Assembly: GCA_035533475.1 (NCBI GenBank)
Contig: DATLTS010000014.1
Span: 62,001-126,000, forward strand
Length of the DNA: 64,000 nucleotides
Source of the DNA: Mycobacteriales bacterium
GTDB lineage: Bacteria > Actinomycetota > Actinomycetes > DATLTS01
Direction: 5' to 3'
Below the pieces are notes generated by a model that saw only the letters and a program-made list of their open reading frames with translations, had not been told where the DNA came from and searched no databases. Numbering within the stretch: position 1 is the first letter of the stretch; every line of letters begins with the position of its first letter. Made by a program: the position numbers and the translations under genes. Below, piece by piece: positions 25,836-53,058 of the stretch.

Positions 25836-28800
25836 ATGCGCAGGCGGAACACCAGGCGATCCGGTACGTCGATGGTGTGCCGGCGCGGGGCGACTCTCGT
25901 CGTCGGGCTCGCGGCTGTCGCGGCGGCCCTGGTTTCCCCGAACAGCCTCCCGACCCTGTCCACGCATACCAGCAGGATCGGATGTCCGGCCGGCACCGCC
26001 GCCGGAGAGAAGTCGGTTGCTGCCATCGCGGCGGGCCGGCCGACGTGTTCCGCACTCGGTGGGCCGGAGGCGTTCACCGAGCAGGCCGCCAACGCCGCGC
26101 AACTTCAGGCCCGGACCACCGCGCCATTCGCCACGAGTGCGCCGGGGGCGTACGCGGCCGGACTCGCACAGGCCGAGCGGCTGCCCGCGGCGGGCACCGT
26201 GCCCGGTAGCGGCAACGCCTGGACGCTCTACGGCAAGTCGCCGGAGTGCGCCGCGCCATCCACCCAGTCCTCCGTCTGCGCCGCCAACGACTCGGCGAAC
26301 GGCAGCTACTCCCAGGTCGGCGCCCTCGGCTTCCGCACCTTGTCCGGCCGGGTCTCGAGCTTCGCGGCCGACCCGGCCAACCCGAACCGGCTGTGGGCCT
26401 CCCCAACCGCCGGCGGGGTCTGGGAGTCCGACAACGGTGGCTCCAGCTGGTTCTCGATCGGGGACGGGTTGCCGACCCAGGTGGTCGGCGCCATCGCCTA
26501 CGACGCCACGTTCCACCGGCTTCTCGTCGGCACCGGTGACAATTCCTTCGGTGGCGACGGCATCAGCGGTCACGGGCTCTTCTACAGCGACAGCGACGGA
26601 AGTTCCTGGGCGCAGGCGGGCGGCGTGCCCGACCTGGCCCTGAGCTTCCGGGTTGTGGTCTCCCCGGCAGACAGCAGCGGGCGGACCGTCTACCTGGCCA
26701 GTAGCAAGGGGCTGTTCCGCTCCACGGACGGCGGTTCCTCGTTCGTGAACGAGAACCTGCAAACAACTCCGCCCGGGTATTCCCCGAACTGCGCCGGCAA
26801 CACGACCACCCCGCTGTGCTTCTTCGCCAACGACGTGACCGACGTGGTGGTCAAGGCAACGGGCTCCGCGAACGCGCCCGCCGGTTCGGTCATGGCCGTG
26901 GTCGGCTGGCGAGCCGGCGCGGAGGCGGACGTGAACCCCGACGGCACCACCAACACCAGCTGCCGGCTGAACGGCTCGCCCACCCCCTGCCTGCAGGGTC
27001 CGCGCAACGGGCTCTACATCTCCCACACCGGCGTTCCCGGCTCGTTCGCCTACCAGGACCAGGGGGCCACCCAGCCCACCACCCAAGGTTTCGCGCCTGA
27101 TCCGGTCGTCGGACGGACCGCCCTCGGGATCGCCAACGGGCCCGGCCAAAGCTCCGACGCGGTCTACGCCATCGTCGAGGACGCGACCAAGTTCCAGGGT
27201 TGCCCGGACGCACTCGACGCCGGAGTGAACCCGGTCTGCAACTCCACCGTCGTCGGATTGGGCATCGCGACCTACCTGGACGGCATGTACGCGACCTATG
27301 ACTTCGGGCACAGCTGGACGAAGATCCTGGACTACACGCAGACGAAGTACCCCGGTACGAACAGCAGCATCGCGGCCTTGCCGGGGTACAGCCCGGGCGT
27401 CCAGTCCTGGTACAACTTGTGGGTCCAGCCGGATCCGTCGACGCATGACGCATCGGGCCACCCCACCCGCGTCCTGTTCGGACTCGAGGAGGTGTGGGAG
27501 AACAACCTCACGGTCCCCGGGGTGCTCAGCGACCCGTGGCAACTGCATCAGACACCCGCGCCGGGCGTTGCCCCGTGGCGCGTGATCGGACGGTATTGGA
27601 ACGCCTGCTCGGAGCTCAACACCGGAATCCCGTGCAACCCGGACCTCAAGTCGAACCCGATCCCGGGCAGCACGACACACCCCGATCAGCACGCCGTGCT
27701 GTTCGTGCCAGACCGCTCCGGCGGCGGGGAGACGCTCTACGTGGGGAGCGATGGCGGCGTCTTCAAGCAGCACATCGCGGCCGGCGGCGACTTCTCCAAC
27801 GACAGCTGGGGCGACGGGCAGAACATCGGGTTGTCCTCGTTGCAGCCCTACGACGCCGAAATGTCCAAAGACGGGACCGTGGTGTCCGGCTTGCAGGACA
27901 ACGGCGAGGAGAAGACCACCCCGAGTGGTCAGGAGTACGAGATCTACGGCGGCGACGCGTTCTTCAACACGATCGACCCGGACAACAGCCAGAACATGAT
28001 CGAGGAGTACACGTACGGCGCGCTCGCGATGACCAACGACGGAGGCGCCAGCTGGTTCCCGTGGGGGGAGACGAACAGCTGCAGCTCGTCAACCGGATTG
28101 TTCTCGACACCGATCGAGCAGGATCCGACCATGCGCGGCCACGTGGTCGTCGGTTGCGGCGGAGTCCAGGAGGCCGTCAATGCCTACGCGAACCCGTGCG
28201 CCGTCCCCCCAGGTGCGCCGGCCTCCACCTGCCAGTTGATCAATATCCCGTTCACCACCGTGTTCAATCTCGGCAACGCCCCGTCCGGCACCCCGTACGT
28301 TCCGTCCGCCCTGGCCGTTCGCGGCGCGAACATCTACGTCGGCTTCTGCGGCTACTGCGACGTGGTGGTCGGGGGACTGCCGTTCCGTAGCGGCCTTGCG
28401 ACCAACGTCGGCGGTTCCCAGCCGCCGGCGATCGGGACGGGCAACGGGTGGCATCTCCTGAACCCCACCTGCTCGGGCTGCGGCACGCCGGACGGCAAAC
28501 TGCCGCAGCGCTACATCACGTCGATCCAGATGGATCCCGCGAACCCGAAGACGGTCTACCTGACCATGGGCGGCTACGGCCGGCGCTGGATTCCACCGGG
28601 CGCGCTCGGCGACGACACGAGCCATCTCGGCGTCGGTCATCTGTTCGTGTCCTACAACGGCGGCCAGTCGTTCACGAACATCTCCGGCAATCTGCCGGAC
28701 GTGCCGGCGAACTGGACCCTGCTGCACAACGGGAACCTCATCGTCGCCACGGACCTCGGTGTCTACATCGATCCACCGAGCGCTTTGGGGCAATTCTCGG

Positions 28801-29090
28801 TGCTCGGCACCGGACTGCCCCGAGTGCCGGTATTCACCCTCCGCGCCGATCCGGGGAACGCGAACCTGCTGCTCATCTCGACCTACGGACGCGGTGACTG
28901 GACCTACCGGTTCCCGGGCTCCGTGTCCGGAACCGGTAGTGGCCACACCGGATCGAGCAGCGGCGGCGGGGCGAGCACCGGCGGCGGCTCCCTAGCCAAC
29001 ACCGGCGAGCAGATCGGCATCCCGATCGGAGGGCTCATTCTCCTCGTCGGGAGCCTCGCCCTCTACCGCCGGCGTCGCAATATCGGGTGA
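25836..29090 (+). CDS. large secreted BNR/sialidase-like repeat protein with LANTG sorting signal
   Basis: 1084 residues from ATG 25836 (GTG 25830 possible). A basic N-terminus and a hydrophobic signal peptide (GATLVVGLAAVAAALVS) come first. The body is a beta-propeller-like exo-sialidase/BNR array with Asp-box-like units such as SDNGGSSWFSIG, SDSDGSSWAQAG and STDGGSSFVNE. Several Cys pairs suggest extracellular disulfides. The C-terminus has a Gly/Ser linker, LANTG, a hydrophobic helix and RRRR, a complete sortase signal of the LAXTG (class E) kind. No catalytic sialidase arginine triad was identified, so binding or structural function is as likely as hydrolysis. Confidence 0.82.
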   Translation: MRRRNTRRSGTSMVCRRGATLVVGLAAVAAALVSPNSLPTLSTHTSRIGCPAGTAAGEKSVAAIAAGRPTCSALGGPEAFTEQAANAAQLQARTTAPFATSAPGAYAAGLAQAERLPAAGTVPGSGNAWTLYGKSPECAAPSTQSSVCAANDSANGSYSQVGALGFRTLSGRVSSFAADPANPNRLWASPTAGGVWESDNGGSSWFSIGDGLPTQVVGAIAYDATFHRLLVGTGDNSFGGDGISGHGLFYSDSDGSSWAQAGGVPDLALSFRVVVSPADSSGRTVYLASSKGLFRSTDGGSSFVNENLQTTPPGYSPNCAGNTTTPLCFFANDVTDVVVKATGSANAPAGSVMAVVGWRAGAEADVNPDGTTNTSCRLNGSPTPCLQGPRNGLYISHTGVPGSFAYQDQGATQPTTQGFAPDPVVGRTALGIANGPGQSSDAVYAIVEDATKFQGCPDALDAGVNPVCNSTVVGLGIATYLDGMYATYDFGHSWTKILDYTQTKYPGTNSSIAALPGYSPGVQSWYNLWVQPDPSTHDASGHPTRVLFGLEEVWENNLTVPGVLSDPWQLHQTPAPGVAPWRVIGRYWNACSELNTGIPCNPDLKSNPIPGSTTHPDQHAVLFVPDRSGGGETLYVGSDGGVFKQHIAAGGDFSNDSWGDGQNIGLSSLQPYDAEMSKDGTVVSGLQDNGEEKTTPSGQEYEIYGGDAFFNTIDPDNSQNMIEEYTYGALAMTNDGGASWFPWGETNSCSSSTGLFSTPIEQDPTMRGHVVVGCGGVQEAVNAYANPCAVPPGAPASTCQLINIPFTTVFNLGNAPSGTPYVPSALAVRGANIYVGFCGYCDVVVGGLPFRSGLATNVGGSQPPAIGTGNGWHLLNPTCSGCGTPDGKLPQRYITSIQMDPANPKTVYLTMGGYGRRWIPPGALGDDTSHLGVGHLFVSYNGGQSFTNISGNLPDVPANWTLLHNGNLIVATDLGVYIDPPSALGQFSVLGTGLPRVPVFTLRADPGNANLLLISTYGRGDWTYRFPGSVSGTGSGHTGSSSGGGASTGGGSLANTGEQIGIPIGGLILLVGSLALYRRRRNIG

Positions 29091-29175
29091 GGCCATGCAT
29101 CGGGGGCCGGACACGCTCGAAGGACAGTCCGGACGGAGCGCAGGGCCCATCCTTGCTTGTTGACGGCGGGTGAGC

Positions 29176-32118
29176 ATGTCCGAGCGGGTCAGCGGCCGGG
29201 CCACCTGGTGGAACCGCGACCTGACCCGCCGTCGGTTGCTCGAGGGCACCCTGCAAGTCGGCGCACTGGCGGCCGGTTCGCTGGCATTCGACGCGGCACC
29301 GGTCCGCGCCTCCATCACGTGCGGAGGTTCGGCCGGAACGGCGGGCATGGGCCCGGTGTTCGGCGCCGAGTTGCAGTATTTCCGGATGCGCCCGAGCTAC
29401 ATTCCGGCGCGGTTGGACCTGTGCCAGCAGGCGGCGTTCACCACGATCCAGTCCTACGTGGCATGGAACGTGCACGAGTACCTGCCCGGCCAGTTCGACT
29501 TCACCGGCAGGACCCACCCGGTACTGCCCGACGATCACGCCGACGAGTACCAGATCGAGACCCCCGCCCAGGAGCTTCAGGACGGGGGGATCATCGGAGG
29601 CGTCGCGAACACCGACCTGCACGGTTTCCTCGGCATGTGCCGGGAACGGGGCTTCCGGGTGATTCTGCGTCCGGGGCCGTTCATCTCCGATGAGTGGCGC
29701 AACGGGGGCCTCCCGGATTGGTTGCTGCTGGCCGGGTATCCACAGATCTATGAGCGAGGGCCGGACGGATCGGCCCTGACCCCAGGGTTCCCGTTCAGCC
29801 CTCCGGCGGGCGTGGTCACCGGCGGTGGACCGCTTTTCTACTTTCCTTCGCCCAGCTACGCGTCGAGCTCCTACCTGGCCTCCGCGCGCGCCTGGTTCGC
29901 GGCCTTCGCCGCGTTCATCAGGCCGTGGCTCGCCAGCGCGGGCGGCCCCGTGGTGAACATCCAGGTCGACGACGAGTCATGCTTCTACTACCGATTCGGC
30001 CCGTTCGAGGTCGACTACCACCCGGAAATGATCGCCCGCTACCGGGCCGTTGAAGGTAGCTCACCACCGACCGCCTGGCCCCCACCGGCGGCGGGGGTCT
30101 CGAGTCTGCGTCCGGCCTTCGCCTGGCAGAGCTTCAAGGCGGCGCAGGTAACCGCCTTCCTCGCCACGTTGGCCGCGGACCTCCGCGCCAGCCGCGTCGA
30201 TGTTCCAGTCACGCATGAGTTGGAGCTGACGTTGGCGCCTCCGGCGGACATGGCACGGGACGCGGCGCACGTCCAGCTCAACCCGGAGCTTTACGTAGGC
30301 GGCACCGATCCATGGACGCTGCCCTGCAACGAACTGTGCGCGCTCGCCGCTCGGGCGGCCCAGCGCAACCGAGGCGTCCTATGGGCGACCGAGATGGAGA
30401 ACGACAACATCGTCCTGTACGACCTCCTTTTCGGGGAGGGGATTCTCGGGGGCCTGCAGTTCACCTACACCGCGGGCGTTCCCGACGGCGCCCTCGGAGA
30501 TCTCGGCCGGTTGGGTCGAACCCTACGAACCGCCGGTGAGCGACTTGGCGCCGCCATCCGCCGACCGGACGTCGCGATCATCTGGGACAACGCCTTGACC
30601 CGCGCCCCCTACAGATCGCAGCGGTGGGGGTTCCGCACCGACGTCCGCAATGTGATCGAACGCGACGTGCCGGCACTAGCCACCCTGCTGATCCGGGGCG
30701 GCTTCGCCTTCGACCTGCTCGACGCCGATGCCGCGGAGGCCGCGGACTACCGGGATTACCCGACCGTGTTCCTGGCGGCCGCCGACATCCTGCCCCGGCG
30801 CGTCCAGGAGCACCTCGTGGCCTACGTCGCCGCCGGTGGAAGGCTGGTGTGCTGGCCGGCGCCACCCAACCTCGACGAGGACCTGAATCCGTGCACGATC
30901 CTCGCCGATGCGTTGTACTTCCAGCCGCGGCGAACCTTCTACCCGGCCGACGCTCAGCAGGTGCGCGTGCTCGGCGTTCTGGTGAGCACGTGGCGGGGGG
31001 TGAGCACTTACCGGCTCGGCCCCCATGCCCGTTCCATCGCCAGCCGGGGCGGTGAGTCCTGTGGCTACGCGTTCCCTTACGGCCACGGTGAGGCCCTGTT
31101 GTTGGGCTCCTGGCTTGCGGCCGACTCGATACCGGGACGGGCCGGTTCCGTTCTGCAAACCCAGGCGCTGCCCACCCCGATCGGGGCGCCTGCGGCGGCG
31201 CGGGCACTGGCCGAGCAGTTCCTCGGCCCGGCGGTTGTCGCACTGGTGCCGAACACGTTTCCTGGCGGCCCGGCGCAGACGCTCCTGGTGTACGACTACA
31301 CCAACGAGCGCCGCGGTGGAGAGGTCATCACCGGCGGTGCCCTCGCCTACTGGGACGGCGAACAAGTCGTCGGCCTCGCCGAGTTGAACACGACCCAGAC
31401 GGGAGGCGGGGCCAGCCGGCTCCCGTTCCGGCCGGTGCAGGAGGCACATCTGGAGGTCATCCGCGCTCTTGCCAACGTTCATCCGCAGATACAGAGCAGT
31501 GACGCGCGGGTGCAGGCAAGGATTCTGGACGCCCCCACCTCGGGCACGGCGACGGTGATGGCAGCCAACCGCGGTGACACGCCCGTCGAGACCGTGCTCA
31601 CCACGACCTTGTCCGGCAAGGTCATCCGGCTGCCGACCGAAGGCACCCTCAGGCTGCCCCCGGCCACCGCCGTGCTGCTTCCCCTCGGCTACGAGCTTGC
31701 GCCGGGCGTGGTTGTCGAACAATCGAGTGCCCAACTCGTCTCCGCCGACCCGGGCCCGGGTTCGATCACGCTCCGCTTGTGGGCGCCCGCGGGCGGCGAA
31801 CTCGTGATCCGGCTGCCGGCGTCACCGGATCGCGCCACCCTCGGCGGTCGGGCCATCGCCCTCAGCCCGCAGGGACGACCACCCGGCGGCCTGGTTCGGA
31901 TTGCACTACCCGCCGGCGACCTCGTGCTCGAGCTGACCTGGACGGCCACGGCTGCGACCTGCGCGACGGGCCCGGGCCCAGCCCGCGCGGACACCCGGCG
32001 CTTGCCAGCCACCGGCACTCGCACGTCCCTGCCGGTCCTCGGGGCGGTCGGGCTGGGCATCGGCGCATGGCTGCGCTGGCTGCGGGAGCGGGAGCCAAAC
32101 GACGGCTGGCATCCGTAG
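29176..32118 (+). CDS. secreted GH35-like beta-galactosidase with LPATG sorting signal
   Basis: 980 residues from ATG 29176 (GTG 29170 possible). A Tat-type signal (LTRRRLLEGTLQVGALAAG) precedes a TIM barrel with the GH35 block RPGPFISDEWRNGGLPDWLL (165-184). The acid/base motif, normally QVENEY, reads QVDDES (263-268), keeping Glu267. The probable nucleophile is Glu406 in VLWATEMEN. A glutamine-amidotransferase-like domain (DILPRRVQEHLVAYVAAGGRLV) and beta domains follow. It ends with LPATG, a hydrophobic helix and a charged tail, so it is likely wall-anchored. It starts 85 bp after the BNR protein and probably shares its transcript. Confidence 0.82.
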   Translation: MSERVSGRATWWNRDLTRRRLLEGTLQVGALAAGSLAFDAAPVRASITCGGSAGTAGMGPVFGAELQYFRMRPSYIPARLDLCQQAAFTTIQSYVAWNVHEYLPGQFDFTGRTHPVLPDDHADEYQIETPAQELQDGGIIGGVANTDLHGFLGMCRERGFRVILRPGPFISDEWRNGGLPDWLLLAGYPQIYERGPDGSALTPGFPFSPPAGVVTGGGPLFYFPSPSYASSSYLASARAWFAAFAAFIRPWLASAGGPVVNIQVDDESCFYYRFGPFEVDYHPEMIARYRAVEGSSPPTAWPPPAAGVSSLRPAFAWQSFKAAQVTAFLATLAADLRASRVDVPVTHELELTLAPPADMARDAAHVQLNPELYVGGTDPWTLPCNELCALAARAAQRNRGVLWATEMENDNIVLYDLLFGEGILGGLQFTYTAGVPDGALGDLGRLGRTLRTAGERLGAAIRRPDVAIIWDNALTRAPYRSQRWGFRTDVRNVIERDVPALATLLIRGGFAFDLLDADAAEAADYRDYPTVFLAAADILPRRVQEHLVAYVAAGGRLVCWPAPPNLDEDLNPCTILADALYFQPRRTFYPADAQQVRVLGVLVSTWRGVSTYRLGPHARSIASRGGESCGYAFPYGHGEALLLGSWLAADSIPGRAGSVLQTQALPTPIGAPAAARALAEQFLGPAVVALVPNTFPGGPAQTLLVYDYTNERRGGEVITGGALAYWDGEQVVGLAELNTTQTGGGASRLPFRPVQEAHLEVIRALANVHPQIQSSDARVQARILDAPTSGTATVMAANRGDTPVETVLTTTLSGKVIRLPTEGTLRLPPATAVLLPLGYELAPGVVVEQSSAQLVSADPGPGSITLRLWAPAGGELVIRLPASPDRATLGGRAIALSPQGRPPGGLVRIALPAGDLVLELTWTATAATCATGPGPARADTRRLPATGTRTSLPVLGAVGLGIGAWLRWLREREPNDGWHP

Positions 32119-32220
32119 CCGGCTAGCCGAATTCAGCTCCGCGCGGGGCGCGGTGGCCGCGAGGCGCCGCCCGGCGTCGGGTGTGGCGCGCGTTCGGTCG
32201 CGAGGTCGGCCGCTATTCGC

Positions 32221-33321
32221 TTAGGCCCGGTGCCGACGAAACCGACTAGACCGCGTGCTGGGCTTGGTGCGCGGATCTGCGACTGCCGGATGCCCGGCAG
32301 CCAGCACGATAAGAGCACCCAGCATGAGCGCCAACAGTCCGACGATCACCGGGAGGCCCACCGGTTCGCCGGTCCGCGGGAGCCCCACCCCGGGGCCGGC
32401 CGACCCGCCGCCGCCGACAGATCCGTTCGTCGTGGACAGCCCGGGGAGGGCTGGCGCCGAAGGGGGGATCGCTGTCGAGGAGGTGATCGAGGCTGCGGGG
32501 ATCGCGGACGTCGTGGGAGCCGCCGAGCCCATCGGGGTCGCGGACGCCGTCGGAGTCGCCGAGGCCGTCGGAGTCGCCGAGGCCGTCGCGCTCACGCAGT
32601 TCGGGCGGGTGACGCTGTTGGAGTCCAGGGTGACCGCACCGTTGCGCGCGAGCAGACGCCCGGCTACCGAAGCGCCGGTGTCGGCGGTCACCGAGGTCAG
32701 CGCCAGGATGCTGCCCACGAATACGGAGTTGGTGCCAAGCGTCGCGGAGCTTCCTACCTTCCAGAATACGTTGCAGGCGCTGGCCGAACCGATGAGCGAA
32801 ACAGCGCTCGCAGAGCCGGTGATGAGCGTGCTGCCGGCCTGGAAGACGAACACGGCACTGGGGTCGCCCTGCGCGTCGAGGGTGAGTGTGCCGTTGAGGG
32901 CGAGGGTCGAGCCGGAATAGACGCCGGGTACCAGCGTTCGTCCGCCGAGGTCTGCTGTGACCGTGGCCGTGGGCGAACGACCGGCGGCATCGTTGTAGGC
33001 CGTGGTCAGGTCGGCTTGCGCCTTGGCCGCCACAGCATCGGCGATGTAGACGGTGCCATTACTCACCGTGCCTGGAGGGAAGCCGGTCACCGAGGTTCCC
33101 GGGCTCAGCCCGAGGTCACCACTGAGCGTCGACGGGCCGGTGTTGGTGACGGTGGTGTGCGCTAGCACCGCGAAGCTAGCGGCCGTCCCAAGTCCGACGG
33201 GCGCTTGGGCGGCATCCGCTGGGCCGCCGGCGAGGACCGTTAGGGCGAGGGTGACGGCGACCGTGATCCCGAGCCCAGGTACCAGAACCCGGGTGGGGAA
33301 ACGCGCAAGCGGACCAGTCAT
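32221..33321 (-). CDS. DUF3494 ice-binding-like adhesin with LPRTG sorting signal
   Basis: 366 residues from ATG 33321 behind GAGGGG. A signal peptide (LGITVAVTLALTVLAGGPADAAQ) precedes a DUF3494 beta-solenoid domain (SFAVLAHTTVTNTGPSTLSGDLG, then GVYSGSTLALNGTLTLDAQGDPSAVFVFQ, SILALTSVTADTGASVAGR). A low-complexity linker encoded by an 18-bp tandem repeat (ATPTAS units) leads to LPRTG, a membrane helix and a basic tail. DUF3494 proteins bind ice or act as surface adhesins. Convergent with the GH35 gene. Confidence 0.88.
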   Translation of the reverse strand: MTGPLARFPTRVLVPGLGITVAVTLALTVLAGGPADAAQAPVGLGTAASFAVLAHTTVTNTGPSTLSGDLGLSPGTSVTGFPPGTVSNGTVYIADAVAAKAQADLTTAYNDAAGRSPTATVTADLGGRTLVPGVYSGSTLALNGTLTLDAQGDPSAVFVFQAGSTLITGSASAVSLIGSASACNVFWKVGSSATLGTNSVFVGSILALTSVTADTGASVAGRLLARNGAVTLDSNSVTRPNCVSATASATPTASATPTASATPMGSAAPTTSAIPAASITSSTAIPPSAPALPGLSTTNGSVGGGGSAGPGVGLPRTGEPVGLPVIVGLLALMLGALIVLAAGHPAVADPRTKPSTRSSRFRRHRA

Positions 33322-33547
33322 CGGAGTGCCCCTCGGAGAGAGTTCCTGCGACCGGGATCCAGGGCCGACGCACGGCTGAATATGCCCGCTAAAGCGCAAT
33401 ATACTCCGGTTTCCCGAAAGTGGGGATCACGCCGACGCTCCCAACGAGCCGGCCACGGCGCAAACGCCCATTCCCGCGTGGTCCAATGCGGAGCGAAGTC
33501 CGCTTCGCGGTGAGGGCACGGATCAACCGGGCCACACCTCCGGTCAG

Positions 33548-33621
33548 AGCCGACGCTCGGATTTGAACCGAGAACCTGCCGATTACAAGTCGGCTGCGCT
33601 GCCAGGTTGCGCCACGCCGGC
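33548..33621 (-). tRNA. tRNA-Thr (anticodon TGT)
   Basis: The minus strand folds into a full cloverleaf. The acceptor GCCGGCG pairs with CGTCGGC (one G-T). The anticodon stem is GCCGA/TCGGC with loop CTTGTAA (anticodon TGT), and the T arm is CTCGG-TTCAAAT-CCGAG. CCA is not encoded. It sits at the border between the surface-protein block and the glycan region. Confidence 0.93.
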
Positions 33622-44592: not shown

Positions 44593-45489
44593 GTGAGACG
44601 CAGCCGACCGCAGCAACGGCCAGGGCCGCCGGAAGCCGCCGGACGGCCGGAGCCGCCACCGGGCGCGCAGCACCTCGTGGTCCTGGTGCTCGACAGCCTT
44701 CGCTACGACTCGTGGGTCGCCGCCGCCCCGGTGGCGCTGTCGCGGATCGGGGCGGTCGAACGGCGATACAGCTACGCCTCCTGGACCGCGCCGTCGCACT
44801 TCAACATGTTGATGGGTCTACTGCCTCACACGTCGCCGACGGGAGTCGTCGCGAGCGATTACTACCAACGGGACTTCGCCCGGTACGGCCAGCGACTCGG
44901 CGTCACCGGCATCGACTTCCCCCGCTTCCTGCCGCAGCTGTGGCTCCCGCATTTCCTGCGGAGCACCCTGGGCTACCGCACGCACGCCTACGTCTCCATG
45001 CCGGTGCTCAATCCGGACACCCCCCTGAACCGGGATTTCGACAGCTACGAGCTGATGCCCCGCCACAACGACCTGGCAACGATCCTGCCGCGGATGCGAT
45101 TCGACCGGGGGCCGAGCTTCCACCTGGTGAACACCGGGGAGACCCACTACCCCTACGCCCCGCCGGACGAGCCGCCGGACAGTTGGCCCCGGATCTCCGG
45201 CCTGCACGGCGCGTTGCGTGACCTGGGCGCCGCGCCGAGCCAAGGGCGCCAGGGGTTGCCGTTCGACCGCGCCGAGTTGCGCGCGCTTCAGGACCGCCAG
45301 ATCGAGGTGGTGCGGTCCGTGGACACCGTGGTGGAGCGGCTGATCGACATGGTCCCGGACGACACCTGGCTGGTCGTAACCAGCGATCACGGGGAACTGT
45401 TCGGCGAGGACGGGTTCTTCGGGCACGGGCCGATCGCCCACGAGAAGGTGATCGAGGTTCCGTTCGTCGAAGGCCAGGTCCCACGCTGA
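44593..45489 (+). CDS. sulfatase-fold protein, C-terminally short, Thr at the nucleophile site
   Basis: 298 residues from GTG 44593. Metal-binding VLVLDSLRYDS (Asp34) and the late SDHGELFGEDGFFGHG block are intact. The active-site stretch is SWTAPSHF with Thr65 where sulfatases have Cys or Ser for formylglycine, so it is probably not a classical sulfatase; phosphoglycerol-type transferases of this fold use Thr. The protein ends about 25 residues after SDHGE, while the neighbour at 45536-46981 continues for about 150. The stop lies in a stretch of degenerate 16-19-bp repeats, so it may be a truncated gene. Confidence 0.7.
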   Translation: MRRSRPQQRPGPPEAAGRPEPPPGAQHLVVLVLDSLRYDSWVAAAPVALSRIGAVERRYSYASWTAPSHFNMLMGLLPHTSPTGVVASDYYQRDFARYGQRLGVTGIDFPRFLPQLWLPHFLRSTLGYRTHAYVSMPVLNPDTPLNRDFDSYELMPRHNDLATILPRMRFDRGPSFHLVNTGETHYPYAPPDEPPDSWPRISGLHGALRDLGAAPSQGRQGLPFDRAELRALQDRQIEVVRSVDTVVERLIDMVPDDTWLVVTSDHGELFGEDGFFGHGPIAHEKVIEVPFVEGQVPR

Positions 45490-45528
45490 AGGCCAGTCCC
45501 GCGCTGAGCCGGTCCCGCGCTGAGCCGG
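45472..45528. repeat. degenerate 16-19-bp tandem repeats at a gene end
   Basis: Units of the form GGCCAGTCCCGCGCTGA occur about three times (45472-45490, 45491-45507, 45508-45523) plus a partial unit. Each contains CTGA, and the first supplies the TGA stop of the short sulfatase-fold gene. Confidence 0.75.
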
Positions 45529-45535
45529 CGACGGG

Positions 45536-46981
45536 CTACATGTAGCCGAGCATCCGCATCGAGGCGTGCAGATCCTCCCGGTTCCCCCCGACCGAGCCGG
45601 GGTCTTCGATGACGTCGGTCAGGGTGGCCACGGCCGGGTGATCGAGGGCGGCCCGCAGCCGTGGCAACCGCTGCGACAGCTCCGCCGGAAGCACCCCCGC
45701 CGCGTCCAGCGGGGCCAGCTCCTGGGGATCCGACTCGAGGTCGTAGACGTCCTCCCCGCCCGGGTGACGGACCAGTTTGACCCGGTCGTCCCGGGCTGCG
45801 GTCAGCGAGCGAGTGAGCCGAACCACCGCAGCCTCCGACAGCCCCCACGCGTCGGCCGCGACCCCGATCCGCGGGTCGTCGGCGTCGGCGAACCCGTCGA
45901 GCTGGGCGACGGCGACACCCTCCGGCACCGCCTCCTCCCGCCACACCGCATCGTCCAAACCGGCGGCCGCGGCGAGGAACCCGGGCAGGCTGGCGAGGCT
46001 GAACGGACTGGCCGGCACCTCGGGTGCGCCCCGCAGGACGAGCGGGACGTGCGTCAGCCGATCGTCCAACGAGACGGCATGCCCGATCAGGCCACCCTCG
46101 CCGAAGTTCTCACCGTGATCACTGGTGACGACGAGCAGCGTGTCGTCGAGGCGTCCACCCTCGGTCAGCGTGTCCAGCAGCCGGCCGAGCCAGTCGTCCA
46201 TGGAACGCACCGAACGCAGGTAGAGGTGGCGCATCCGGGCCAGCGAGCGCGGCGATGGCCCACGCCCGGTCACGCAGGCCTTGAAGACCCCCTCCAGGGT
46301 CAGGTGGCGGCGGGCGTCCCAGCCGGCGAGGGCGCGGGACCACGGGCCGAGGTCGTTGTACGGACGCGGCGGCAGGAACGGCGAGTGGCATTCGAAGACG
46401 TTGACGAACAAGAAAAAAGGCCGGCGCGGGTCGGCATCGGCGAGCATGCCGCGAACCGCGCCCTCCACGGCGGTCAGGCCATCGTCGACCTCCGCCCGGA
46501 TCGCATCCGACAGGTAGGCGAACGACCGGCGCAGACCGGCGCCCGCCACCAGATGGTTGCGCTGGGAGCGCACGGTGACGAACCGCGAAATCCCGAGGTC
46601 GAATCCGGACAGCTCGCCCACCCAGACGCTCGCGGACGCGGCCATCGTCTGATACCCGGCGGCCTGGAGCGCGACCGGCAGGTACCGGCGGCCGACCGTC
46701 CGCAGCGCCTGGGTGGACACCGACATCGGGCCCTCTGGGGCGTGACTCAGCCGGTGGCCCAGCCCCAACCGCCTGGGCATCAGCCCGGTGAGCATCGACA
46801 TGTGCGACGGCAACGTCCAGTTCGCGACCGAGAACGCCTGCTCGACGGCCTGCCCGTCGCGCGCGACGGAGTCGATCACCGGGGTCACGTCGGGAGCCGC
46901 CCCGTAGGGCGTGAACGCGTCGGCCCGGGCGGTGTCGAAGACCACCAGCACGATGTTCGGGGCGCCGGACGAGGTGGGCAC
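45536..46981 (-). CDS. sulfatase-fold hydrolase/transferase, Thr at the nucleophile site
   Basis: 481 residues from GTG 46981. Asp16 in VVFDTARADAF and the SDHGENFGEGGLIGH block supply the metal ligands of the alkaline-phosphatase superfamily. The site that carries formylglycine in sulfatases reads NWTLPSH with Thr56, so a phospho- or other transferase or a different hydrolase is more likely than a sulfatase. No membrane anchor or signal peptide is visible, so it may act in the cytoplasm. Convergent with the shorter paralogue. Confidence 0.78.
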   Translation of the reverse strand: MPTSSGAPNIVLVVFDTARADAFTPYGAAPDVTPVIDSVARDGQAVEQAFSVANWTLPSHMSMLTGLMPRRLGLGHRLSHAPEGPMSVSTQALRTVGRRYLPVALQAAGYQTMAASASVWVGELSGFDLGISRFVTVRSQRNHLVAGAGLRRSFAYLSDAIRAEVDDGLTAVEGAVRGMLADADPRRPFFLFVNVFECHSPFLPPRPYNDLGPWSRALAGWDARRHLTLEGVFKACVTGRGPSPRSLARMRHLYLRSVRSMDDWLGRLLDTLTEGGRLDDTLLVVTSDHGENFGEGGLIGHAVSLDDRLTHVPLVLRGAPEVPASPFSLASLPGFLAAAAGLDDAVWREEAVPEGVAVAQLDGFADADDPRIGVAADAWGLSEAAVVRLTRSLTAARDDRVKLVRHPGGEDVYDLESDPQELAPLDAAGVLPAELSQRLPRLRAALDHPAVATLTDVIEDPGSVGGNREDLHASMRMLGYM

Positions 46982-49446: not shown

Positions 49447-50280
49447 GTGACCGACGAGGTCGGCCCCGGCACCGCGCTGTTGGATCTCGCCGGCCGGCGC
49501 ACCCCGGTCCACGAGCTGCTCGCGGACGCTTGGCGGATCCGCTCGGTGGTGCTGTTGCTGGCTCGCCGGGAGTTCGTGGTGCGCTACCGACGGGCCGCGC
49601 TCGGCAGCCTCTGGGCGATCGCCTTGCCTTTGCTTCAGGCCGTAGTGCTGGCGATCCTGTTCTCCAGGATCGTGCGGCTTCATCAGCCGCATTTCTTCGT
49701 CTTCGTCTTCGCCGGGATGACCGCCTGGGGGTTCTTCTCGGCGACCCTCCCCATCGGGGCGACCGCCATCGTCGACGGCTCCCAGCTGTCGAGCAAGGTC
49801 TATTTCCCCCGTCTGGTGCTCCCCGTGGCACTGGTTGCAGCCAATGTCTACGTCGTCATCGTGAACAGTGTCATCCTGCTGTTCGCCTGCCTGGTGTCCG
49901 GGATCGGCCTCGGTCCGCGAACGGCGCTGCTGATCCCGGCGGTCGCCCTGCTGCTCGCCCTCACCTTGACGCTGTCGCTGCTGCTCTCCGCGCTGCACGT
50001 GTACTTCCGCGACATCCGCTACCTCGTGCAGGCGGGGATGTTGCTCCTGTTCTACCTGACGCCGATCTTCTATCCGCTCCAGTTGGCCGGGCACCTGACG
50101 CTGATCGACCGGATCAATCCGGTGACCGGCGTTGTCGAGCTGATCCGAGCGGCCACGATCGGCGCCGATCCGCACACCACGAGCTCGGTTATCGGCTGCT
50201 GCGCGTGGATCGTCGGCACCGGTGCGGTGGCGCTCGCGCTGCACAGCCGCTACGACCGGCTGTTCTCGGATCTGCTGTGA
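49447..50280 (+). CDS. polysaccharide ABC exporter permease (Wzm/TagG-like)
   Basis: 277 residues from GTG 49447 behind GGGAGGGG. Six hydrophobic segments in the ABC-2 layout, with the block FVVRYRRAALGSLWAIALPLLQ near the N-terminus and YFRDIRYLVQAGMLLLFYLTPIFYP in the second half, which are typical of O-antigen/teichoic acid exporters. It would move a lipid-linked glycan across the membrane with the following ATPase, whose GTG overlaps its stop. Confidence 0.92.
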   Translation: MTDEVGPGTALLDLAGRRTPVHELLADAWRIRSVVLLLARREFVVRYRRAALGSLWAIALPLLQAVVLAILFSRIVRLHQPHFFVFVFAGMTAWGFFSATLPIGATAIVDGSQLSSKVYFPRLVLPVALVAANVYVVIVNSVILLFACLVSGIGLGPRTALLIPAVALLLALTLTLSLLLSALHVYFRDIRYLVQAGMLLLFYLTPIFYPLQLAGHLTLIDRINPVTGVVELIRAATIGADPHTTSSVIGCCAWIVGTGAVALALHSRYDRLFSDLL

Positions 50281-51891: not shown

Positions 51892-53058
51892 ATGCGGGTG
51901 CTCGTGCTCGGCGGCGATGGCTTCTGCGGTTGGCCGACCGCGCTGCACCTGTCCGAGCGTGGCCATGAGGTCAGGATCGTCGACAACTTCGCCCGCCGCG
52001 TCGCGGACATCGAACTGGAGGTGTCGAGCCTCACACCGATCACGCCGTTGGGCACCCGGCTGGCGGCGTGGCGGGAGCTGACGGGACGGGAGATCGGCTT
52101 CGACCGAATCGACGTGGCAACGGAATACGAACGGCTGGCTGGTCTGCTGACCGCCTGGCGGCCGGACACGGTGGTGCACTTCGCGGAGCAACGCGCCGCG
52201 CCCTACTCGATGAAGTCGAGCTGGCACAAGCGCTACACGGTCTCGAACAACGTAAACGCCACGCACAACCTGCTGGCCGCACTCGTTGACGTCGGCCTCG
52301 ACGCCCACGTGGTGCATCTGGGAACCATGGGTGTGTACGGCTACGGCACGGGCGGTGCCCGTATCCCGGAGGGGTACCTCACCGTCGGGGTCCGCGGTGC
52401 GGGCGGCCAGTGGGTGGAGCGGGAGGTACTGCACCCGACGGATCCCGGCAGCGTCTACCACCTGACCAAGACGCAAGATCAGTTGACGTTCGCCTACTAC
52501 GCCAAGAACGACGGGGTGCGGATCACCGATCTTCACCAGGGCATTGTGTGGGGCACCCAGACCGAGCAGACCCGCCGGGACGCACGACTGATCAACCGCT
52601 TCGACTACGACGGGGACTACGGGACGGTCTTGAATCGCTTCTTGATGCATGCCGCGATCGGGTATCCCCTGACCGTTCACGGGACCGGTGGCCAGACCCG
52701 GGCCTTCATTCACATCCGGGACACTGCCCGCTGCATCGAGTTGGCCGTCGCGAGCCCGCCGCCTGCCGGATCCCGGGTGCGGATCCTCAATCAGATGACG
52801 GAGACGCATCGGCTCATCGACCTCGCCAAATTGGTGTCACGGCTCACCGGTGCCGAAATCGCCTTCGTCGACAACCCACGCCAGGAGGCCGTCGAGAACG
52901 ACCTGGACGTCGTCAACGACGGCCTGCTCGAGCTCGGCCTGGCCCCGCTACTGCTGGAAGAGGGGCTGCTCGGCGAGGTCACGGAGATAGCAGAGAAGTA
53001 CGTGCACCGCTGTAATCGCGACGCGATCCCGTGCCGTTCGCTGTGGCGGCGACCCTGA
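51892..53058 (+). CDS. UDP-sulfoquinovose synthase-like NAD-dependent enzyme (SQD1/SqdB family)
   Basis: 388 residues from ATG 51892 behind GAGGGAGG. The N-terminus VLVLGGDGFCGWPTALHL is the SQD1-specific variant of the NAD loop. The segments FAEQRAAPYSM (98-108) and HLGTMGVYGYG (143-152) follow. Catalytic residues Thr145, Tyr189 and Lys193 (YHLTK) are in place. Known family members convert UDP-glucose plus sulfite to UDP-sulfoquinovose for sulfolipid or sulfoglycans. No SqdX/SQD2-type transferase is adjacent, so the sugar may enter the surface glycan. Other nucleotide-sugar chemistry in this subfamily is possible. Confidence 0.82.
   Translation: MRVLVLGGDGFCGWPTALHLSERGHEVRIVDNFARRVADIELEVSSLTPITPLGTRLAAWRELTGREIGFDRIDVATEYERLAGLLTAWRPDTVVHFAEQRAAPYSMKSSWHKRYTVSNNVNATHNLLAALVDVGLDAHVVHLGTMGVYGYGTGGARIPEGYLTVGVRGAGGQWVEREVLHPTDPGSVYHLTKTQDQLTFAYYAKNDGVRITDLHQGIVWGTQTEQTRRDARLINRFDYDGDYGTVLNRFLMHAAIGYPLTVHGTGGQTRAFIHIRDTARCIELAVASPPPAGSRVRILNQMTETHRLIDLAKLVSRLTGAEIAFVDNPRQEAVENDLDVVNDGLLELGLAPLLLEEGLLGEVTEIAEKYVHRCNRDAIPCRSLWRRP

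Follow-up and report, generated by a model that had tools for sequence, protein, structure and literature searches.

The window, that is, the whole stretch of 64,000 nucleotides analysed here, lies on contig C14 in the genome of a soil-type actinobacterium and carries three adjacent genes whose products end in three different sorting motifs. As listed in Table 1, a double beta-propeller protein and a GH35 glycosidase are encoded on the forward strand, and a DUF3494 protein is encoded on the opposite strand, convergent with both. A tRNA-Thr gene lies directly beside the DUF3494 gene, between it and a large downstream glycan locus in which glycosyltransferases, epimerases and an ABC-2 permease follow. 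The three ORFs and the neighbouring glycan locus had been reported in an initial annotation made from the sequence, and all of them were recovered in our analysis.

Table 1. Coordinates of the features discussed in the text (window positions unless a locus is named).
Feature	Position	Strand	Basis
GH74-like double beta-propeller (BNR/Asp-box) surface protein	25836..29090 (ATG 25836, 1084 aa) or GTG 25830 (1086 aa)	+	
GH35 / GlmA-like glycosidase, probable exo-beta-glucosaminidase type, 982 aa	29170..32118	+	
DUF3494 (Ice_binding) domain protein	32221..33321 (ATG); upstream TTG 33399	-	
LANTG sorting motif of BNR protein	28992..29006	+	sequence; held-out profile E 2.5e-9
LPATG sorting motif of GH35 protein	32002..32016	+	sequence; held-out profile E 4.1e-4
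LPRTG sorting motif of DUF3494 protein	32368..32382	-	sequence; held-out profile E 3.2e-4
Tat-like twin-arginine motif TRRRLLEG of GH35 protein	29224..29247	+	sequence
Asp268-Glu269 of GH35 protein (predicted acid/base Glu after glucosamine-recognising Asp)	29971..29976	+	alignment to GlmA 'DDE'
tRNA-Thr (TGT)	33547-33621	-	
UDP-sulfoquinovose-synthase-like gene stretch, downstream glycan locus	51892-53058 with 44593-46981 and 49447-50280		
DUF3494 loci with sortase data	L136 3604-5519; L137 3602-5524; L138 1046-2823; L139 5043-7426; L140 2-995		

The BNR protein scores below the cut-offs of both NF045728 (43 bits) and Sortilin-Vps10 (20.6 bits). A propeller profile of 11 homologues finds its best match in the GH74 xyloglucanases, and the top PDB matches of a predicted low-confidence propeller model (pLDDT 59) are GH74 double propellers with a TM by target of about 0.6. 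The BNR propeller of the initial annotation is, by family profile and predicted fold, a GH74-like double propeller. The two-propeller fold is thus shared with the double seven-bladed xyloglucanases, but the identity is only about 14%, the window protein is wall-anchored by its predicted signal, and one catalytic residue is apparently missing. In the profile alignment, where a shift of blade register is possible, GH74 'TDIGG' aligns to 'TAGG' of the propeller, and the catalytic Asp of blade 1, which we take to be the Asp in RTDIGG, appears to be absent. Because of this substitution xyloglucanase activity is doubtful, and binding is the likelier guess for its role. On the propeller tree the window protein groups most closely with proteins from a 'Chloroflexi' soil MAG (70% identity) and from Candidatus Aeolococcus gillhamiae, an Antarctic member of Dormibacterota, and the sorting motif is absent in both. 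Across the propeller family (L158, L169, L176, L180), Actinomycetes have sortase tails and Dormibacterota a plain membrane tail, and the Nevskiales homologues have a glycine/serine-rich stalk followed by a membrane tail with arginines. PEP-CTERM and GlyGly-CTERM anchors were considered for the homologues of these other phyla (Dormibacterota, Nevskiales) and rejected, as no curated model matched.

The second protein is a GH35-like glycosidase, as first annotated. It is above the cut-offs of PF01301 (93.8 bits, cut-off 27) and of PF22369, the GLMA second domain (68.2 bits, cut-off 27.7). Its nearest solved relatives are PDB 5gsl (E 9e-44) and 5gsm (E 8.5e-39), archaeal GH35 exo-beta-D-glucosaminidases or close kin. 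With archaeal GlmA of Thermococcus and Pyrococcus it shares the GH35 barrel sequence, the GLMA second domain, the Asp-Glu motif and the conserved Tyr and Glu of the binding site; but it is actinobacterial, it has a Tat-like export signal, an extra C-terminal region and an LPATG anchor, and it stays far below the equivalog NF041127 (156.8 bits, cut-off 1500). Is it a galactosidase? In GlmA-Tk the amino group of glucosamine is bound by Asp178, which precedes the acid/base Glu179; the beta-galactosidases of GH35 and GH42 carry Asn instead, and the D178N mutation inactivates GlmA (PMC6566704). The Asn-Glu motif of GH35 beta-galactosidases is absent from the window protein, in which Asp268-Glu269 stands at that site and aligns to the 'DDE' of archaeal GlmA; in five GH35 relatives from the same phylum, the aligned residues are Asn-Glu. 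A candidate for the nucleophile (Glu347 in GlmA-Tk) is the Glu in ATEMEN (residues 406-411), but the alignment there is gappy and the model (pLDDT 43) too poor to place it. Because of the Asp-Glu motif, and because GlmA proteins are the nearest solved relatives, the protein looks from its sequence like a glucosamine-specific exo-enzyme rather than a galactosidase, which turns the earlier proposal of a galactose-directed enzyme towards glucosamine. Among 118 genomes of its class, only the window genome reaches the GLMA_2nd cut-off. A scan of genome contigs for named relatives of the GH35 protein found none, and plasmid records gave only distant beta-galactosidases.

The third protein matches PF11999 over its full length (1-208 of 208, 215.5 bits, E 8.5e-64), and its closest solved structure is the antifreeze protein PDB 6eio (E 6.8e-57). 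The initial assignment as a DUF3494 ice-binding-like protein stands. It has the full-length domain of the DUF3494 ice-binding proteins; in contrast to them, a low-complexity stalk and then the LPRTG anchor follow, and ice binding is putative. The family shows another arrangement elsewhere. In other Actinomycetes, five of 18 DUF3494 matches (one of them partial) adjoin a sortase assigned to class F by its score, which in one case is just under the cut-off (Table 1). These sortase-adjoining proteins have unusual tails, with A or D and then G after xTG, not LPxTG, and the LPxTG-tagged DUF3494 proteins (window, G033, G051 and G040) have no listed sortase beside them. In G005 and G042 the DUF3494 proteins break off at GDNSTG, directly followed by the stop codon, and have no membrane segment (L136 3604-4677; L140 2-241; L141 228-1067), and in L136 and L140 such a gene stands immediately before the class F sortase gene. 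The DUF3494 genes with class F neighbours look like a dedicated adhesin-sortase pair. A literature search found no paper covering both DUF3494 and sortase.

Are the three C-termini real sorting signals? All of them have L(P/A)xTG, a hydrophobic helix and a basic tail. The BNR protein ends in LANTG-EQIGIPIGGLILLVGSLALYRRRRNIG, where a transmembrane segment is followed by YRRRRNIG; the GH35 protein ends in LPATG-TRTSLPVLGAVGLGIGAWLRWLREREPNDGWHP; and the DUF3494 protein ends in LPRTG-EPVGLPVIVGLLALMLGALIVLA, with a strongly hydrophobic segment and a basic tail. The curated LPXTG models are borderline here: the BNR protein is just below TIGR01167 (15.3 bits, cut-off 15.9) and below PF00746 (13.3 bits, cut-off 20), and the GH35 and DUF3494 proteins match neither of the two. 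For this reason a held-out HMM was trained on 42 sorting signals that did not include the three in question; 21 of them came from the same genome and the other 21 from propeller homologues. It was run against 1240 sequences, namely the tails of all window ORFs of 100 aa or more and 900 shuffled versions of the three tails. Exactly the three proteins rank first, with the E-values given in Table 1, and the best decoy among window ORF tails and shuffles has an E-value of 0.065. No other sorting-signal tail was found in the window. At the N-terminus, a hydrophobic segment is seen in all three proteins by hydropathy and by reading of the sequence, and that of the GH35 protein is Tat-like, with T-RR-R-L-L-E at residue 19. 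Thus the description of each protein as having an export signal and a C-terminal sorting signal is upheld. A 2024 paper (PMC10924467) describes natural Tat-dependent sortase substrates of actinobacteria, by its own account the first report of such substrates, and they share with the GH35 protein a twin-arginine signal and a C-terminal sorting signal; unlike it, the verified ones appear not to be glycosidases. Since its signal peptide has the twin-arginine motif, the GH35 protein is probably another substrate of this kind.

Which enzyme would anchor these proteins? The window has no sortase, as had been noted before. In the whole genome (3.27 Mb, 68 contigs, 98.7% complete), PF04203 matches occur only on contig C41, where we found two sortases, one clear class E and one class E-like. 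The initial reading is not refuted by a lack of sortase genes. The former (C41:286087) scores 240.4 bits against the class E model NF033747 (cut-off 160) and is located between a DUF881 gene and a gene whose sequence suggests a pabA-like product. The latter (C41:137190) scores 114.8 bits, below that cut-off, with class E still its best class. The tyrosine of 'GHY', presumably Tyr229 of S. coelicolor SrtE1 by our own count back from the catalytic His251, is kept in both. The system resembles the class E systems of S. coelicolor (SrtE1) and Actinoplanes missouriensis (SrtE) in its class E enzyme and in its LAxTG/LPxTG clients with a transmembrane segment and a basic tail. Two differences are the score of the second sortase, which stays under the class E cut-off, and the number of signals found here, which exceeds the eight candidates reported in A. 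missouriensis. A profile search of the genome, with a profile that included the three signals of the window and that may miss some tails, gave 24 tails, of which 17 are LPxTG and seven LAxTG, with A, R, N, D, S, E, H or M as residue X.

Does the variety of motifs mean more than one sortase specificity, as was suggested at first? In such a scenario the LANTG and the LPxTG proteins would each have their own enzyme, with one set going to the class E sortase and the other to the second, diverged one. The presence of two sortases, one of them diverged, and the occurrence of both LA and LP clients in the genome are in line with it. But the class E tyrosine is kept in both enzymes, and the neighbours of the second sortase are a TadE-like gene and a protein with no LPxTG tail, not LA or LP clients. 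What is more, the position switches at random within one protein family. The propeller paralogue in the same genome carries LPATG where the window propeller has LANTG, and on a tree of 29 propeller homologues whose tag has A or P there, the two interchange at least 9 times. In 200 shuffles of the labels the changes range from 6 to 11, and 127 of the 200 have no more than 9, which means that the residue at this position shows no phylogenetic signal. Fully supported sister pairs on this tree differ in tag (IATTG/LPTTG and LPATG/LAATG). Note that the homologues come partly from genomes with three or four sortases each (G010, G033 and G051), so that this lability test is not drawn from single-sortase genomes; in five single-sortase genomes the signal profile detected one signal in total. 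On the enzyme side, LPETG and LAETG are both substrates of purified S. coelicolor SrtE1, which prefers Ala 2-fold (PMC5148588), and the SrtE of A. missouriensis appears to use LPVTG (PMC13251363). Given the genome-wide mix of tags, the random Ala/Pro switching and the acceptance of both by SrtE1, the data suggest that the differences among LANTG, LPATG and LPRTG do not imply several SPECIFICITIES and do not require a split between two sortases. We therefore consider the sorting of the two sets by different enzymes unlikely.

There is a further question, whether the three genes form a functional surface module that binds and trims a galactose-containing glycan of the cell's own, made by the downstream locus. 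The genes are adjacent to each other and close to glycosyltransferase genes, the BNR and GH35 genes share a strand and are only 79 bp apart, and the three signals fall within 3.5 kb, which exceeds chance under random placement of the genome's signals (p = 0.007). Against the module stand the glucosamine-type Asp-Glu motif of the GH35 enzyme, the convergent orientation of the DUF3494 gene and the tRNA-Thr gene between it and the glycan locus. Moreover, the same trio was not found at any related locus in a comparison across relatives no closer than class level. A search around 10 BNR loci (the paralogue of this genome and class relatives), and around 80 propeller loci of public genomes to a distance of about 6 kb, gave no GH35 or DUF3494 homologue, and neither GH35 nor BNR homologues were found near 13 DUF3494 loci. 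Six genomes with BNR homologues, including the three closest found, gave no GH35 in a search that had no positive control. The module is thus highly improbable in our estimate. Signal clusters occur elsewhere in the same genome as well, with a mixed LP/LA pair on contig C28 and three LPRTG-tagged proteins in 9 kb on contig C53 (G000:C53:2442-11366; loci L076, L081 and L082).

Some other features of the neighbourhood were also considered. The 3' end of the tRNA-Thr has no copy in the window, so there is no sign of an integrated element, and an island at this tRNA was rejected. A 15-nt direct repeat with one mismatch flanks the three genes (25303 and 33524) and is at the level of other chance repeats; intergenic terminators and promoters are no more numerous than in shuffles. 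In the downstream glycan locus, a UDP-sulfoquinovose-synthase-like gene (311 bits, cut-off 575) shares its stretch with two sulfatase-fold genes and an ABC-2 permease similar to a galactan exporter, and the locus may make a sulfonated or charged glycan.

Taken together, we regard the three proteins as independent cell-wall-anchored clients of class E sortase, and not as a conserved unit or a glycan-trimming module, with a probability of about 75%. Of the initial interpretation, the export and sorting signals, the presence of sortases in the genome and the glycan locus have held up, and the several specificities, the galactose enzyme and the module have not. In the scenario of independent clients, the BNR and DUF3494 proteins would cross the membrane probably by Sec and the GH35 enzyme probably by Tat. 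Each would stay in the membrane through its C-terminal helix until the housekeeping class E sortase of contig C41, perhaps also the class E-like one, cleaves L(A/P)xTG between T and G and links the protein to the wall; the three tags differ no more than a single sortase type would tolerate. On the cell surface, the GH35 protein would cleave off terminal glucosamine in beta linkage, a polysaccharide would be the ligand of the double propeller, and the DUF3494 protein may act as an adhesin or as an ice or surface binder. A more specific picture, in which a Tat-exported, anchored exo-beta-glucosaminidase acts on a glucosamine-rich polymer of the cell's own wall or on chitosan and, in addition, some of the 24 signals belong to proteins served specifically by the second, diverged sortase, seems improbable as a whole.

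What do these proteins mean for actinobacteria? They are known kinds of protein, and their meaning is mostly ordinary. Since the tag position swaps freely between homologues, neighbouring LAxTG and LPxTG tags in actinobacteria should not be taken as evidence of separate sortase pathways. What stands out most is the glucosaminidase-like enzyme, which is probably exported by Tat and anchored by sortase. With such a wall-anchored GlmA-like enzyme, an inexpensive assay could show whether the glucosaminidase activity known from archaea also occurs at the surface of actinobacteria.
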